Part shown: positions 10,220-21,609 of the stretch, piece after piece
How positions within the stretch are numbered: the first letter of the stretch is position 1
How the letters are laid out: each line of letters begins with the position of its first letter
Assembly (NCBI RefSeq): GCF_002964975.1
Contig: NZ_PSZM01000037.1
Span: 1 to 64,000 of the forward strand
DNA: 64,000 nucleotides
Direction: 5' to 3'
Source: Apibacter adventoris
Lineage (GTDB): Bacteria > Bacteroidota > Bacteroidia > Flavobacteriales > Weeksellaceae
Program-made: the position numbers and the translations under genes
Notes under the pieces: model-generated
What the model saw: only the letters and a program-made list of their open reading frames with translations
Database searches by the model: none
What the model was told of the DNA's origin: nothing

Positions 10220-11323
10220 ATTTCCAATTTTTATAATCTTCAATAGATTTACATGTACAAATTAAATTTCTGTCTCCATAGGCATTATTAATTTTTCCAA
10301 CAGAATGTCAAAACTTATTTTCTAAAATCCAATTTAAAGGATAAGCAGCTTTTTGCCTACTATAAGAATGATTCCAATGATTAGAAGTAACTTCAGCAAG
10401 TGTATGAGGAGCATTTTTGATTAAACAATCTTCTATTGGGTACTTTCCAGTTTCAATTTTATCTATTTCTTTTCTAATTGAGATTAAAGCTTTTGTAAAA
10501 CGATCTAGTTGAGCAATACTTTCACTTTCTGTAGGTTCAATCATTAATGTTTCTGGAGCCGGGAAAGAAACAGTAGGGGCATGAAAGCCATAATCCATTA
10601 AACGTTTAGCAATGTCCCCAACTTCTATTCCCAAAGATTTAAAAGGTCTGAAATCAATAATCAGTTCATGACCTACTCTACCAAATTTATTAGTGTAAAG
10701 AATTTGGTAATATAGAACTAATTTACTTTTCAGGTAATTAATATTTAATGTATATCAATTGTAGTAGCTTTTTTTAATCCTTCTGCTTTTTGTTTTAATT
10801 ACTGTAAAGGTTTGAGTATACATTACTTTAAAAAATAAAAAATTTATTAGATTGTATTTGATCTTTCGGTTTGGATTCATATAGCATATGAATAACTTTA
10901 GCTGCAGCAGTTGCCTCTTCCAAAAGAAATGCATTAGAAATAAAAAACCGGTTAAATCGGAAATTAATGTTTGAAAATTTAGCAAGGCTTCTAATCTTCC
11001 CTGAGACACTTCTGCTTGGTTTGTACCAACTCGGATTTTCAAAAATATTCCTTTGGATAGGTGCCGGAAGGATCGTTCCAAAGTACCCAAAATCTATAAA
11101 TGAACTGAAAACTTTATTCTAAGAAGCTAGATATTTGGATAATAAAATCATATCATATTCAGATATAGCTTTTGGCAGTTCTAAATCTTCTTGTTCTAAA
11201 ATATTTTTAGGCATAGTCTGGGAAATTAATTTATCAACAGAAGAAGCATTAATTTATTTTAGAATTTTATGTATATCATTTTCACTGATTCATATGTTGT
11301 AAAGAAAAATCAGAAGTGTTCAT
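10218..11323 (-). pseudogene. gcvP: Decayed glycine dehydrogenase (decarboxylating), GcvP
   Basis: Two ends of GcvP can still be read on the minus strand. The C-terminal end is clear: GRVGHELIIDFRPF, DIAKRLMDYGFHAPTVSFPA, MIEPTESES, KNAPHT, then ENKF, an in-frame TGA (about 10308-10310, where Trp is expected) and finally NNAYGDRNLICTC. The N-terminal end is seen in pieces: KNILEQEDLELPKAISEYD, a TAG at 11119-11121, FENPSWY, a frameshift near 11020, AEVSQGRLEALLNFQT, another shift, LLEEATAAAK and LYESKPKDQIQ. The N-terminal part (to about residue 190) then joins directly to about residue 770 near 10785, so some 580 codons including the PLP-binding region are gone. The gene cannot make an active P-protein. 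Confidence 0.92.
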
Positions 11324-11460: not shown

Positions 11461-11492
11461 TTTGTTTATAAAAAAAATAATATATATTTTTG
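11461..11492 (+). promoter_or_regulatory. trp operon promoter (TTTG-N20-TATTTTTG)
   Basis: TTTG at 11461-11464 and TATTTTTG at 11485-11492 match the flavobacterial -33 and -7 elements with a 20-base spacer, the best such match in the window. Transcription would start near 11498, about 10 bases before the trp leader-peptide ATG. Confidence 0.7.
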
Positions 11493-11507
11493 TTTCATCT
11501 AAATAAA

Positions 11508-11564
11508 ATGGGAAAAATTATAAATATAACAAGTTGGTGGCGTTTTCAACTTCAAAAGTTGTGA
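11508..11564 (+). CDS. trpL: trp operon leader peptide with tandem Trp codons
   Basis: A complete 18-codon frame, MGKIINITSWWRFQLQKL followed by TGA, begins just after a consensus promoter and ends 51 bases before a terminator hairpin that precedes trpB. Codons 10 and 11 are TGG TGG (11535-11540). Two adjacent Trp codons are very unlikely by chance in such a short AT-rich frame, and this is the classic design of a leader peptide for ribosome-mediated attenuation. There is no Shine-Dalgarno sequence, as usual in this phylum. The stop codon lies inside the segment that would form the antiterminator, as expected. Expression of the peptide has not been shown. Confidence 0.8.
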   Translation: MGKIINITSWWRFQLQKL

Positions 11565-11641
11565 GTCAGCAGTTATGTCTATAATATTGAATAATATTAA
11601 GTAAAAAATAAAGGCCTATCGTACTCACGATAGGTTTTTTT
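11547..11641 (+). promoter_or_regulatory. trp attenuator: competing RNA pairings before trpB
   Basis: Segment 1, CAACTT (11547-11552), pairs with AAGTTG (11556-11561). Segment 2, GTTGTGAGT (11558-11566), can instead pair with ACTCACGAT (11623-11631; six Watson-Crick pairs plus a U-A and two G-U pairs). That would remove the 3' arm of the terminator CCTATCGT/ACGATAGG (11615-11634). A ribosome stalled on the Trp codons would mask segment 1 and free segment 2, giving antitermination; a ribosome at the TGA (11562-11564) would cover segment 2 and let the terminator form. A further small hairpin lies at 11582-11599. Energies were not computed. Confidence 0.7.
11611..11641 (+). terminator. Attenuator terminator upstream of trpB
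   Basis: CCTATCGT-ACTC-ACGATAGG is a perfect 8-bp stem with a four-base loop, extendable by G-U and A-U pairs at its base, followed by seven T. It ends 18 bases before the trpB start codon and after the trp promoter, so it can only work as a premature (regulated) terminator of the trp transcript. Confidence 0.82.
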
Positions 11642-11659
11642 ATATATAAATAAAGACCT

Positions 11660-12847
11660 ATGCAAAAATATCATGTAGATCAAAATGGATTTTATGGAGA
11701 ATTTGGAGGAGCGTATATTCCGGAAATACTTTATGATAATGTAGAAAACCTAAAAAATAATTATTTGAAAATACTGGAAGATCCAAAATTTAAAAAAGAG
11801 TATTATTCATTATTAAAAGATTATGTAGGACGTCCCTCTCCCTTATATCTTACTCGAAGACTATCCGAAAAATATGGTTGTAAAATTTATTTAAAAAGAG
11901 AAGATCTTAATCACACAGGTGCACATAAAATTAATAATACTATAGGTCAAATATTGATAGCCCAAAGAATGGGAAAAACAAGGATAATTGCTGAAACAGG
12001 TGCAGGGCAACATGGGGTAGCCACAGCGACAGTTTGTGCTCTAATGGGAATGGAATGTATTGTATATATGGGAAAAGTAGATGTTGAAAGACAAAAATTA
12101 AATGTAGAAAAAATGCATATGTTAGGAGCTACAGTGGTTTCTGTCACCAGTGGCAATATGACATTGAAAGATGCTACTAATGAAGCTATTCGTGATTGGT
12201 GCTCCAATCCTTCAAATACATATTACATCATAGGATCTACAGTGGGACCACATCCATATCCGGATATGGTAGCTAGATTACAGGCAATTATTAGTGAAGA
12301 AACTCGTAAGCAATTATTGGAAAAAGAAAAAAGAGAAACTCCGGATTATGTTATAGCTTGTGTAGGAGGAGGTAGTAATGCAGCAGGGATGATTTACCAT
12401 TTTTTAGATGAACCTTCTGTGAAAATAATTTTAGCAGAGGCTGCCGGTAAGGGGATAAATTCAGGAGAATCAGCAGCTACTATCCATTTAGGAAAACTAG
12501 GAATTATTCATGGAAGTAAAACACTTATTATGCAGTCTGAAGATGGTCAAATAGAAGAACCTTATTCTATTTCAGCAGGATTAGATTATCCTGGGATAGG
12601 ACCTATGCATGCAAATTTATCCAAAATTGGACGTTCAGAAGTTTTAGCTATTACAGATGATGAAGCGATGAATTCTGCCTTTGAGTTAACTCGTTTGGAA
12701 GGAATAATTCCTGCAATTGAGTCTGCTCATGCCTTAGGAGTATTAAATAAAAAGAAATTTAAAAAAGAAGATATAATAGTTATTTGTTTATCCGGTAGAG
12801 GAGATAAAGATATGGAAACCTTTATAAAAGAACAAGAGAAAAGATAA
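11660..12847 (+). CDS. trpB: Tryptophan synthase beta chain
   Basis: Condenses indole with serine using PLP; partner of TrpA at 18.2 kb. 395 residues of the TrpB1 type: the PLP lysine is Lys90 in HTGAHKINN, AETGAGQHG supplies the catalytic Glu, and CVGGGSNAAGM binds the cofactor phosphate. It is the first structural gene after the leader/attenuator and precedes trpE by 10 bases. Having trpB at the head and trpA at the tail of the cluster, 5.3 kb apart, is unusual because the two are normally adjacent. Confidence 0.97.
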   Translation: MQKYHVDQNGFYGEFGGAYIPEILYDNVENLKNNYLKILEDPKFKKEYYSLLKDYVGRPSPLYLTRRLSEKYGCKIYLKREDLNHTGAHKINNTIGQILIAQRMGKTRIIAETGAGQHGVATATVCALMGMECIVYMGKVDVERQKLNVEKMHMLGATVVSVTSGNMTLKDATNEAIRDWCSNPSNTYYIIGSTVGPHPYPDMVARLQAIISEETRKQLLEKEKRETPDYVIACVGGGSNAAGMIYHFLDEPSVKIILAEAAGKGINSGESAATIHLGKLGIIHGSKTLIMQSEDGQIEEPYSISAGLDYPGIGPMHANLSKIGRSEVLAITDDEAMNSAFELTRLEGIIPAIESAHALGVLNKKKFKKEDIIVICLSGRGDKDMETFIKEQEKR

Positions 12848-12857
12848 TTAGAATAAA

Positions 12858-14249
12858 ATGAAAATACAGGTAAAGACAAAAAAATTATTGGCAGACTTAC
12901 AAACTCCTGTAGGTATATATTTGAAAATAAGAGATGTGTTTCCAAAATCTGCCTTATTAGAAAGTTCTGATTTCCATGCTGGAGAAGATAGTTTTTCATT
13001 TATTGGATTAGATCCTATAGCTTCTTTTAAAGTACAAGATTATCAAATTACCACAGATATTCAGAATAAGAGACAAGTACAAAAGATAAATACTCAATTA
13101 ACTATTGAATTAGCCAATTTTATAAAAAGATTTAAAATAGAGGGAGAAAATCCCACAGGGTTTAATGGCTTTTTTGGATATACATCCTATGATAGTATAC
13201 GTTATTTTGAATCCGTAGATCCAATAAATAAAAAATTGGAAAATGCAGATGTTCCTGAGCTCTATTATATTTTTTACCATTTTATATTAGTTATTAATCA
13301 TTTAAAAAACGATTTAACCATCGTCGAAAATATTCCGGAAGGAGAAAATAGTAAAATGGAAGAATTAGAAGCATTATTACAAAATAATAATTTTGCTTCC
13401 TATAATTTTAAAACTCAAGGAAAAGAAAGCAGCTTCATTTCTGATAATGAATATAAAGAATATGTAAAAAAATCAATACAACATTGTAAAAGAGGAGATG
13501 TTTTTCAAATAGTGCCTTCTCGTTGTTATTCCCAGTCATTTATAGGAGATGATTTTAAAGTATATAGAGCATTACGATCAATAAACCCATCTCCATATTT
13601 GTTTTATTTTGATTTTGGTTCGTTTCGTATTTTTGGTTCTTCACCAGAAACCCATTGCAAAATATCTAAAGGAAAAGCTTATATAGATCCTATAGCAGGC
13701 ACATATAAAAGAACAGGAAACGATGAAAAAGATCGAATTCTTTCTGAAAAATTATTACAGGATGAAAAAGAAAATGCAGAACATGTAATGTTAGTAGATT
13801 TAGCAAGAAATGATTTAAGTCGTAATTGTCATGATGTAAAAGTAAATTTTTATAAAAGTGTACAATACTTTTCTCACGTTATACATTTAGTATCTAGAGT
13901 AAGTGGAACTATAGAAGATGGAAAAAATAATATTTCTGTTTTTGCAGATACTTTTCCTGCGGGAACATTATCTGGAGCCCCTAAAGTGAGAGCTATGCAA
14001 TTAATACGAGATATTGAAAAACATATGAGAGGAATATATGGAGGTTGTATCGGGTATATAGGATTAAACGGAGATTTAAACCAAGCGATAACCATTCGAT
14101 CTTTTCTAAGTAAAAATAATATTTTGTATTACCAGGCTGGGGCCGGAATAGTTTCCAAGTCCAACCCCGAAGATGAACTTCAAGAAGTAAATAACAAATT
14201 AGGAGCATTAAAAAAAGCCGTTGATTTAGCAGAAACATTAAAAAATTAA
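12858..14249 (+). CDS. trpE: Anthranilate synthase component I
   Basis: Makes anthranilate from chorismate with ammonia or with glutamine via TrpG. 463 residues. The chorismate-binding domain shows SSPETHCK, the PIAGT motif typical of TrpE (rather than PabB), LVDLARNDLSR and AGAGIV. LLES at residues 33-36 is the Trp-binding feedback motif, so the enzyme should be inhibited by tryptophan in addition to the transcriptional attenuation. Second gene of the operon. Confidence 0.95.
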   Translation: MKIQVKTKKLLADLQTPVGIYLKIRDVFPKSALLESSDFHAGEDSFSFIGLDPIASFKVQDYQITTDIQNKRQVQKINTQLTIELANFIKRFKIEGENPTGFNGFFGYTSYDSIRYFESVDPINKKLENADVPELYYIFYHFILVINHLKNDLTIVENIPEGENSKMEELEALLQNNNFASYNFKTQGKESSFISDNEYKEYVKKSIQHCKRGDVFQIVPSRCYSQSFIGDDFKVYRALRSINPSPYLFYFDFGSFRIFGSSPETHCKISKGKAYIDPIAGTYKRTGNDEKDRILSEKLLQDEKENAEHVMLVDLARNDLSRNCHDVKVNFYKSVQYFSHVIHLVSRVSGTIEDGKNNISVFADTFPAGTLSGAPKVRAMQLIRDIEKHMRGIYGGCIGYIGLNGDLNQAITIRSFLSKNNILYYQAGAGIVSKSNPEDELQEVNNKLGALKKAVDLAETLKN

Positions 14250-14262
14250 AAAAATAAAACAT

Positions 14263-14808
14263 ATGAAAGCATTAATTGTTGTAGACATTCAAAATGATTA
14301 CTTTGAAGGAGGGACTATGGTTTTGGATGGAGCTTTAGAAGCTAGTGAAAAAGCAAAACAAATAATAGATAAATTTAGAAATGATCGTTTACCGGTTATT
14401 CACATACAACATATTGCCCTTAGTCCAGATGCAACTTTTTTTCTACCTTATACTAAAGGGGCAGAATTTCATCCAAATGTAAAACCCGAAGGAGGAGAAA
14501 TTGTAATTACCAAGTATTATCCAAATAGTTTTTTAAAAACAGATCTTCAAAAATATTTACAAAAATTAGAAGTAAAAGAATTAGTAATTTGCGGAATGAT
14601 GACTCATATGTGTATAGATGCTACTACAAGGGCCGCAAAAGATCTTGGATATGAATGTACACTAATAGGAGATGCATGTGCAACACGAGAATTGGAAATT
14701 TCAGGAATAAAAGTTGTTTCCCAGGAGGTTCATGCAGCATTTTTATCAGCTTTGGATTACTATTATGCAAATGTTACTACAGCTAACGATTATTTAACAG
14801 CTAATTAG
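14263..14808 (+). CDS. Isochorismatase-family cysteine hydrolase (nicotinamidase-like)
   Basis: 181 residues with the catalytic triad of the family: Asp8 (VVDIQNDY), Lys84 (TKYYPNSF) and nucleophile Cys117 (GMMTHMCIDATTRAA). It lies between trpE and trpG with spacings of 13 and 4 bases, clearly within the operon. The family includes nicotinamidases, isochorismatases and amide hydrolases. A link to chorismate or anthranilate chemistry is attractive from context, but the residues visible do not decide the substrate. It could also be a neutral passenger that is conserved in related genomes. Confidence 0.85.
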   Translation: MKALIVVDIQNDYFEGGTMVLDGALEASEKAKQIIDKFRNDRLPVIHIQHIALSPDATFFLPYTKGAEFHPNVKPEGGEIVITKYYPNSFLKTDLQKYLQKLEVKELVICGMMTHMCIDATTRAAKDLGYECTLIGDACATRELEISGIKVVSQEVHAAFLSALDYYYANVTTANDYLTAN

Positions 14809-19410: not shown

Positions 19411-21609
19411 ATGTATTTTATGAAGTATTTTTTACGCTTTTTTATTTTCGTATTTTGTTTAAGCGTTTCAGCTAAACAAATAGATGTAGCAACAGCAACT
19501 TCAGTTGCAGAGTCTTTTATAAATGAGAGTTCTTCTTTAAATAAAAAGAATGCAATCATTTTAAATTTGGTATATACCTCAACCTCTAGTAGTAATGCAA
19601 AAACAATTAAAAAACCATATGTATATTATTATATTTTTAATATTAATAATGATCAGGGTTTCATCATTGTTTCTGCAGATGATGTGAATACACCAATTTT
19701 AGGGTATTCTACAACAGGTAGTTATAATCCTAAAAATGTTCCTGATAATTTTAAATCTTGGATGGAAATGGTTTCTTTAGGTATGGAAAAAGCAATAATA
19801 AACGGAACAACCCCTACAAAAGAGATTCAAAAAGAATGGGATAATTTCCGTCAAGGAAAGAAGATTTATACTAAAGCATCTAAAACAATAGTGGTTGAGC
19901 CATTAATCAAAACAAAATGGAATCAATCATATCCTTACAACAGTTTATTGCCTTATTCCGGATTGTATACAGGTTGTGTGGCTACGGCTACAGCACAAAT
20001 TATGAACTATTATAAATATCCGAAATCAGGAGTTGGTATTATACAATCTTATTCTATTTCCAATGATAATACCATATATTATATTCCTGCTATAGATTTA
20101 TCAAAATATACTTATGATTGGTCTAATATGCTAAATACTTATGATTATACACCCTCAGGAAATGATGTACAGAAAAAAGCAGTAGCTTTATTGATGTATC
20201 ATATTGGTGCCAGTGTTAAAATGAGTTATTCAAAATCAGGTAGTGGTGCATATTCAATGGATGCAGCAAAGGCATTAGTTACTTATTTTGGTTATGATAA
20301 AAGTTTAGAATTAAGATCGCGAGACGATTATGGTTATTCAAATGATTTAAATAATGCTTGGGACGAAATGTTAAGAAAAGAATTAAAAAATAAACGTCCA
20401 ATATATTATGATGGACGAGGAACCGGTGGGCATGCTTTTATTTGTGATGGCTATGATGACCAAGGTTTTTTTCATTTTAATTGGGGATGGGGAGGATATC
20501 AAGATGGTTATTTTAAAACAACAGCAACTTTAGATTATACCAAAAATCAGTCTGCTATGTTTAATATCAAACCTAGTACTGGAAATATTAGTATTCCTAA
20601 ATTAGAATTGAACAAGGATTATACATCTATTTCTTCAGAAGTTACATCTGGTAAAGGCGGAGCTAAGTTTTCAACTAAATTTAGTTTTAAAAATGTTTCT
20701 TTATTTCCTTTTCAAGGCTATTATGGAGTAGCATTGACAGATGAGAAAGATAATATTCAATATATTCTAGCTCAATCAAATCTTTCAGAATTAAATTCAG
20801 GATATTATTATAAAGAATACAATTTTTATGAATGCGTTATTCCTTTAGGGGCTAAACCTGGAAAATATAGATTAAGAATGGTCTCTAAAGTTTTAGGACA
20901 GAATGATTGGGTTATAGTAACCAGTCCATTGTCAACAGTTATTAAATATATACCATTTGAAATTTTAGTTGGAGAGGAAAAAGCTAAACTTCAAATTTTA
21001 AATAATACACCACTTTCTGCCTCTAAAAGTTCAGCTAAACCTAATGAGTCTTTTTTAGTTAAGCTAAGTTTTAAAAATTATTCAAGAATACCATTTAGAG
21101 GATATTATGGTATAGCTCTAACAGATAATACAAATACTATAAAATATATTTTAGCACAGTCAGGTCTTTCAGAATTAAATCCTGGATATTATTATAGATT
21201 ATATAATTTTAATTGTTTTATTCCATCAAATGCAATGCCAGGCTATTATAAATTGAGAATGGTTTCTAAAGCTCAAGGAGAGCAAAACTGGTCTTTAATT
21301 AATGCGGAATCTTCTTCTGTTATAGACCAGATTCCGTTTGAAATTTCTAATAATAAGACTTATATGAATTCAATATCTGATAAAATTAATATATATCCTA
21401 ATCCTGTGCTAGATAAAATGTATATACAATCAACCGTAAATATTACAAAAATAGTTTTATATAATATGTATGGTAATTTGGTTTTACAAGCAAGTGAAAG
21501 CGAATTGAAAAATAAAATGATTGATTTAGGAAATCTTAATAGTGGAATTTATATTGCACATATATATACCAGTCAAGGAAAAACTATATATAATGTAATT
21601 AAAAAATAA
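19411..21609 (+). CDS. Secreted C10-family cysteine peptidase (streptopain-like) with T9SS sorting domain
   Basis: 732 residues (a second ATG three codons in is equally possible). A signal peptide is followed by a pro-domain (about 24-150) with GFIIVSADD. The peptidase domain has Cys189 in YTGCVATATAQIMNYY and His341 in GTGGHAFICDGYD, then FHFNWGWGGYQDGYF. After it come two homologous ~125-residue domains (about 385-512 and 515-640; GYYGVALTD and GYYGIALTD, RLRMVSK and KLRMVSK) and a type A T9SS sorting domain from INIYPNPVLD. The enzyme should be secreted as a zymogen and act on external proteins. A strong terminator follows. Confidence 0.93.
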   Translation: MYFMKYFLRFFIFVFCLSVSAKQIDVATATSVAESFINESSSLNKKNAIILNLVYTSTSSSNAKTIKKPYVYYYIFNINNDQGFIIVSADDVNTPILGYSTTGSYNPKNVPDNFKSWMEMVSLGMEKAIINGTTPTKEIQKEWDNFRQGKKIYTKASKTIVVEPLIKTKWNQSYPYNSLLPYSGLYTGCVATATAQIMNYYKYPKSGVGIIQSYSISNDNTIYYIPAIDLSKYTYDWSNMLNTYDYTPSGNDVQKKAVALLMYHIGASVKMSYSKSGSGAYSMDAAKALVTYFGYDKSLELRSRDDYGYSNDLNNAWDEMLRKELKNKRPIYYDGRGTGGHAFICDGYDDQGFFHFNWGWGGYQDGYFKTTATLDYTKNQSAMFNIKPSTGNISIPKLELNKDYTSISSEVTSGKGGAKFSTKFSFKNVSLFPFQGYYGVALTDEKDNIQYILAQSNLSELNSGYYYKEYNFYECVIPLGAKPGKYRLRMVSKVLGQNDWVIVTSPLSTVIKYIPFEILVGEEKAKLQILNNTPLSASKSSAKPNESFLVKLSFKNYSRIPFRGYYGIALTDNTNTIKYILAQSGLSELNPGYYYRLYNFNCFIPSNAMPGYYKLRMVSKAQGEQNWSLINAESSSVIDQIPFEISNNKTYMNSISDKINIYPNPVLDKMYIQSTVNITKIVLYNMYGNLVLQASESELKNKMIDLGNLNSGIYIAHIYTSQGKTIYNVIKK

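Follow-up and report, generated by a model that had tools for sequence, protein, structure and literature searches.

Comparative analysis of a 64,000-nucleotide stretch of Apibacter adventoris DNA (the window) indicates, with a probability that we put at roughly 90%, that its trp operon is under ribosome-mediated attenuation by tryptophan, through a leader of the Bacteroid-trp (RF01692) type. Upstream of trpB lies a short reading frame carrying codons for the operon's product, together with what appear from alignment to be mutually exclusive, covarying antiterminator and terminator pairings. Direct reading places the candidate promoter, the Trp-codon frame, the competing pairings and the terminator exactly where an earlier sequence-only reading of this DNA had put them. 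The elements and the genes that follow, all on the forward (+) strand, are:

11461–11464, +, TTTG, candidate −33 promoter element, read directly against a general consensus
11485–11492, +, TATTTTTG, candidate −7 promoter element (TAnnTTTG), read directly
11488–11620, +, match to RF01692 Bacteroid-trp, 43.5 bits, cut-off 49
11508–11564, +, leader peptide frame MGKIINITSWWRFQLQKL, 18 amino acids, ATG at 11508–11510 and stop codon TGA at 11562–11564
11517–11585, +, outer helix around the Trp codons and the 1:2 hairpin, 11517–11530 with 11572–11585 in the predicted fold
11535–11540, +, regulatory codons TGG TGG
11547–11552, +, segment 1, CAACTT
11556–11561, +, segment 2 as partner of segment 1, AAGTTG, six pairs in the window
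11558–11566, +, segment 2 as antiterminator strand, GTTGTGAGT, holding the stop codon
11615–11622, +, terminator 5′ arm, CCTATCGT
11623–11631, +, antiterminator target, ACTCACGAT, comprising the terminator loop (ACTC) and the first part of the 3′ arm
11627–11641, +, terminator 3′ arm, ACGATAGG, and T-run
11660–12847, +, trpB, first gene of the operon, TIGR00263 at 583.5 bits, cut-off 392.45
12858–14249, +, trpE, best family TIGR00564 at 427.3 bits, below the cut-off of 517.7
14263–14808, +, isochorismatase-domain hydrolase between trpE and trpG, PF00857 at 135.5 bits
14813–18971, +, trpG, trpD, trpC, trpF and trpA, with G, D, C and A above a curated cut-off

Bacteroidota promoters share a consensus of −33 and −7 elements, and the two candidates here point to a transcription start site near 11498–11500. 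In 80 of the 82 leaders with enough upstream sequence, a TAnnTTTG motif precedes the first Trp codon by 20–110 nt; among random 90-nt windows, 148 of 3080 contain one. The frame is preceded by no Shine-Dalgarno sequence, as is usual in Bacteroidota. The terminator is a perfect 8-bp hairpin, CCTATCGT(ACTC)ACGATAGG at 11615–11634, after which a T-run reaches to 11641. The A and T tracts on either side allow the hairpin to be extended, giving 13 pairs in the predicted fold, and the trpB ATG at 11660 follows 18 bases after the end of the T-run. The 141-nt leader as a whole folds at −33 kcal/mol (z = −4.92), and 0 of 200 shuffled sequences fold as well.

The operon has the gene order trpB-E-(hydrolase)-G-D-C-F-A, in which trpF scores 172.6 bits with its best model, below the cut-off of 215. 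A complete copy of the hydrolase, 62% identical to that of the window and likewise placed between trpE and trpG, occurs in a Dysgonomonas metagenome-assembled genome (L008); the first 30 hydrolase residues follow trpE at the edge of two loci (L085 and L086), and trpG comes directly after trpE in two others (L003 and L090), with no hydrolase between them. One genus-mate (L087, genome G058) keeps the leader but shows no trpE by tblastn within 1.5 kb after trpB, and the operon may be rearranged there. Upstream of the leader, the reverse strand at 10251–11286 carries a remnant of gcvP (glycine dehydrogenase) made up of C-terminal and N-terminal pieces with internal stops, whose middle was not found and whose family has no match elsewhere in the genome. 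Downstream of the operon, the forward strand at 19411–21609 encodes a Peptidase C10 with a Spi-type inhibitor domain and a C-terminal secretion-system sorting domain.

We propose the following mechanism. Transcription would start near 11499, with a ribosome trailing the polymerase through the 18-codon leader. When Trp is short, the ribosome would stall at 11535–11540 and cover segment 1, leaving segment 2 (GTTGTGAGT, with the stop codon) free to pair with ACTCACGAT as it emerges, so that the operon is read. When Trp is plentiful, the ribosome would reach the stop codon and cover segment 2 itself, and in the absence of translation segments 1 and 2 would pair with each other. In either of these last two cases, with segment 2 covered or paired, the terminator at 11615–11641 would form and transcription would end before trpB.

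Folding with competing structures, as the sequence-only reading had suggested, was carried out here for different ribosome states and is consistent with this switch. With assumed ribosome footprints, in which a block up to 11550 represents a stall on the second Trp codon, the stalled ribosome gives antiterminator probabilities of 0.25, 0.70, 0.96 and 0.90 for RNA ends at 11627, 11629, 11631 and 11633, respectively; with no ribosome, or with a ribosome at the stop codon, the probability is 0.00. For RNA ends at 11634 and 11639, the terminator wins at equilibrium in every ribosome state (0.91–0.98). Because equilibrium favors the terminator once its hairpin is exposed, the model implies that the antiterminator must act kinetically. 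At the point of termination the last RNA bases are held inside the polymerase, and so the antiterminator could indeed act in this way.

The RNA itself belongs to a described family, and the novelty that the sequence-only reading had hinted at falls away. A scan of the 64 kb at Rfam gathering scores placed none of the families, T-box included, above its cut-off. In a permissive scan the top match was RF01692 Bacteroid-trp, the "Bacteroidete tryptophan peptide leader RNA", at 43.5 bits; the match is full-length (positions 1–131 of the 131 in the model; E = 8.2e-4 for 601 bases), and a search of the whole genome returned the leader as the sole match (E = 8.8e-4). Since the window copy falls below the gathering score of 49, a default Rfam scan misses it. 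Genus-mates score 57.1, 53.8 and 50.3 bits at the equivalent place, and by sequence comparison the leader is a member of RF01692 through orthology to these genus-mates and not through its own score. Two scans of relatives placed 8 of 18 and 12 of 16 loci above the cut-off. Three other models were set aside: RF04312 "trpB" (21.7 bits against a cut-off of 59) and RF00378 Qrr (21.7 against 50) were sub-threshold, and RF00513 Trp_leader reached 14.8 bits (E = 4.2) against a cut-off of 41.

The leader resembles RF01692 in occurring in Bacteroidota before trp operons, in holding its Trp codons in a conserved stretch and, in the predicted fold of the window, in a structured region around those codons and the 1:2 hairpin. 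It differs in the score of its own copy and in extent, because the Rfam model breaks off within the 5′ arm of the terminator and covers neither the terminator hairpin nor the antiterminator. Vitreschak and colleagues, in FEMS Microbiol Lett in 2004, reportedly mentioned attenuators in Bacteroidetes/Chlorobi. Bacteroid-trp originates with Weinberg et al. 2010 (PMC2864571), whose Table 1 assigns it to Bacteroidetes and marks it "y" as an RNA, "y" as cis-regulatory and "n" as a switch. In the portions of the literature searched, the string "RF01692" occurs only in that paper; "Bacteroid-trp" is named once more in PMC4977773, and the text available from PMC2965389 holds no word beginning "Bacteroid". 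The long 5′ untranslated regions with short frames that PMC7366714 describes in B. thetaiotaomicron are likened there to leader peptides, and its main text, as available, holds no word beginning "trp". The trp attenuators described for Corynebacterium and Streptomyces (BMC Microbiol 2005, PMC1262725) resemble the present leader in encoding peptides with two or three UGG codons, in forming terminator and antiterminator hairpins and in having been identified by genome comparison, but they belong to another phylum and, in the description available, have GC-rich conserved triples (gGCC-rGCy-GGCC).

The leader frame is widely kept among relatives, a check that the sequence-only reading had proposed. 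Of 80 named relatives, 77 carry a short frame with two adjacent Trp codons (WW) in the 400 nt before trpB, and equally in the 350 nt before it; the three misses are L008, where the contig ends 74 nt upstream, L019 and L032. By comparison, a WW frame of 12–60 amino acids is present in 89 of 2200 random 350-nt windows taken from the loci studied. All eight fetched loci of the genus (L083–L090, the window included) have WW(W) leader frames. Of 395 genomes drawn across the phylum, 47 have an RF01692 match with E up to 0.01, 37 of them above the cut-off, and within the window's family 45 of the 148 genomes drawn have one; both counts are lower bounds because of the stricter filters used. All nine genomes drawn from the genus have a match, three of them above the cut-off, and among 14 well-known control genomes only a Bacteroides has one.

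The gene that follows the leader varies with lineage. In 42 loci fetched with RF01692, all with a WW or W-x-W frame, the nearest match to trpB or trpE on the downstream side is trpE in 38, which belong to the window's order or family outside its genus, and trpB in four, one of the genus and three of the same class. In the genus and in named relatives that we label Bacteroidales-type, the leader precedes trpB, and trpE follows trpB in most such loci. The sequence-only reading had stressed a position upstream of trpB rather than trpE; the position stands for the window, but the contrast reflects gene order, with trpE after the leader in those 38 loci and trpB in Bacteroidales. Among 22 loci from other families, the 450 nt around trpB lack any WW or W-x-W frame in 19 and hold frames unlike the leader in three, a pattern that fits leaders sited at trpE there. 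In one genome of the same family (G019, contig C97), an RF01692 match lies just past the 3′ end of trpB and not before it. Taken at the level of sequence, the leader is a conserved regulatory element that occurs beyond one order of the phylum.

The pairings were assessed on an alignment of 72 non-redundant leaders, drawn from 124 that could be parsed from 130 loci as a Trp run plus an intrinsic terminator, a procedure that itself required the Trp run. Dropped at parsing were L008, L019 and L032 (no WW frame) and L024 and L060 (no terminator by the parsing rule) from a set of 88 loci, and L139 (no terminator by the same rule) from the set of 42; L084 and L151 are copies of L003, and the other leaders left out of the alignment were near-duplicates. 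Its rows comprise 54 Bacteroidales-type, 11 flavobacterial-type and seven of the window's genus, where the type names are labels of this analysis and at least one row, the Prolixibacteraceae locus L041, may not belong to Bacteroidales. Three TGG codons are present in 51 leaders and two in 21. Double and breaking changes were counted on a TrpB tree of 59 rows.

Both the terminator and the 1:2 hairpin covary across this alignment. For the terminator, 97.9% of cells are paired, covariation is 0.507 versus 0.243 when shuffled, and the tree shows 40 pair-keeping double changes (0–4 when the pairing is slid) with 10 breaking changes. The 1:2 hairpin is paired in 71.2% of cells with covariation of 0.298 versus 0.143; two of the six window pairs are mostly unpaired in relatives, 110 of 500 shuffles reach the observed number of pairs with a double change, and the tree holds nine pair-keeping double changes (slides 0–4) and 16 breaking changes. 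The outer helix, which is part of the RF01692 consensus, is paired in 52.7% of cells, and 26 of 500 shuffles reach its covariation; we dropped it as an independent line of evidence.

The stop codon occupies one fixed segment-2 column in 56 of the 72 leaders (28 TGA, 28 TAA), in agreement with the earlier proposal that the TGA lies in segment 2 where a terminating ribosome should block the antiterminator. It lies elsewhere in 16, six of which have it well downstream (columns 86–96). When the antiterminator forms, a stop codon at this column of segment 2 would be among the paired bases. The second base of the stop codon faces a terminator-loop base as A-U in 35 rows and as G-C in 35 of the 72, a co-change that amounts to about two events on the TrpB tree and, in a test of independent pairs, to one or two pairs, too few to weigh. 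In three genus-mates (L085, L086 and L089), segment 2 reads CCGTG(G/A)G and the terminator top has a matching change; the stop codon has moved to a place immediately before segment 2 in L085 and L086 and to one after it in L089.

These patterns bear on what the leader does. A constitutive premature terminator next to an unrelated small frame, with Trp sensing left to another factor such as a repressor and the pairings arising as by-products of conserved sequence, would agree with the modeled win of the terminator at equilibrium in all ribosome states. We consider such an arrangement very improbable, however, as the fixed stop codon and the covariation of all three switch pairings would then be unexpected, and the relatives with WW frames before trpB had been collected by their TrpB only, without reference to the leader. 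It is more improbable still that the main action of the leader, as peptide or as RNA, takes place in trans once transcription has terminated, with attenuation secondary: a second role is reported, in the accounts available, for peTrpL, the rhizobial trp leader peptide of Sinorhizobium, but here the peptide outside the Trp run varies between lineages whereas the RNA pairings are kept. Attenuation in cis, with Trp supply presumably setting the position of the ribosome, is the reading that we carry forward.

Within that reading, the best-supported layout of the conserved antiterminator, judged on the alignment, is one in which the stop-codon segment pairs with the loop and 3′ arm of the terminator and not mainly with its 5′ arm. 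This pairing is present in 85.3% of cells, with covariation of 0.295 versus 0.222 when shuffled; 0 of 500 shuffles are as high and the best slide reaches 0.142, although two of five shuffle measures are not extreme (17 of 500 for pairs with a double change, 44 of 500 for further pair types). Double changes on the TrpB tree number four, versus 0–2 when slid. Breaking changes number 23, and the three final pairs account for 16 of these; of 59 rows that have letters at the ninth pair, only 16 keep it. When segment 2 is paired with its own loop and 3′ arm, the average energy is −11.19 kcal/mol versus −8.68 with those of other leaders, a gain matched in 0 of 2000 permutations overall, 0 of 2000 among the 54 Bacteroidales-type rows, 4 of 2000 among the 11 flavobacterial-type rows and, not decisively, 214 of 2000 among the seven rows of the window's genus. 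Three swap controls on two other segments showed no gain. Two of them gave no trend (978 and 876 of 2000); the third set the linker against the loop and 3′ arm, and there nearly all permutations (1996 of 2000) did at least as well as the leader's own pairing. Deducing the layout from pairing energy alone was rejected, as shuffled segments reach the median energy in 9% of cases, and the layout rests instead on the count and swap tests.

In E. coli trpL, the antiterminator uses the terminator's 5′ arm. Leaders of this RF00513 type resemble the present one in having two tandem Trp codons and competing 1:2, antiterminator and terminator pairings, and differ in that the supported partner of segment 2 here is the loop and 3′ arm. 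A classical antiterminator that captures the 5′ arm, with the loop and 3′-arm pairing secondary, nevertheless has some claim on the data: the stretch that follows segment 2 can form a nested inner helix with the 5′ arm, which is seen in folds and is swap-supported in the 54 Bacteroidales-type rows (−6.85 versus −5.02 kcal/mol, 0 of 2000), and a crude duplex measure counts 5′-arm pairs as the largest single class (733, versus 617 for the 3′ arm and 400 for the loop). That measure cannot separate the two designs, because the E. coli trpL control also touches both terminator arms by it. For the inner helix, the swap test gives no support within the window's genus (409 of 2000) or among the 11 flavobacterial-type rows (706 of 2000). 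The loop and 3′-arm pairing, by contrast, is supported in both the Bacteroidales-type and the flavobacterial-type rows, and we regard the classical design as rather unlikely. The textbook attenuation logic that the sequence-only reading invoked is thus supported by comparison as a mechanism, while its antiterminator may differ from the textbook form by using the loop and 3′ arm.

The operon itself appears to have come from outside the window's order. Its TrpB is 82–87% identical to the nine Dysgonomonas proteins fetched and 58–72% identical to the full-length TrpB proteins listed from other genera of its own family. In a TrpB tree (83 hand-thinned proteins of 110 loci; TrpB only, built by a quick method with SH-aLRT support only and a midpoint root), the genus (eight rows, support 96) and 11 Dysgonomonas-type rows together make up a set of 19 (99), and this set lies inside a set of 25 with six further Bacteroidales-type rows (95); 12 other members of the family stand apart from the genus (99). 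The genus and Dysgonomonas have in common a leader variant, GTCGTGAGT/GTCGTGAGC, whose loop holds ACTC. Given this grouping of TrpB with Dysgonomonas within Bacteroidales, the operon was probably acquired, together with its attenuator, by horizontal transfer from a Dysgonomonas-like donor, with the genus placed inside or beside Dysgonomonas.

We tentatively extend these results, at slightly less than even odds, to an antiterminator of unusual layout, shared across the phylum, in which the stop-codon segment copies the top of the terminator 5′ arm, lands on the loop and captures the 3′ arm, in which the choice of UGA or UAA and the loop base co-change, and which passed unaltered, along with the operon, from a Dysgonomonas-like donor to a genus belonging to another order. 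Both the antiterminator layout, which lies outside the Rfam model, and the operon transfer appear new as far as we searched, and an earlier description may exist, for example in the supplement of PMC2864571.

For the organism, the sub-cut-off score explains why default annotation misses the leader here. For the family, the layout described above adds a testable switch mechanism to an RNA whose Rfam model covers only part of it. More broadly, these results suggest the passage of a metabolic operon from one order to another along with the RNA element that controls it.
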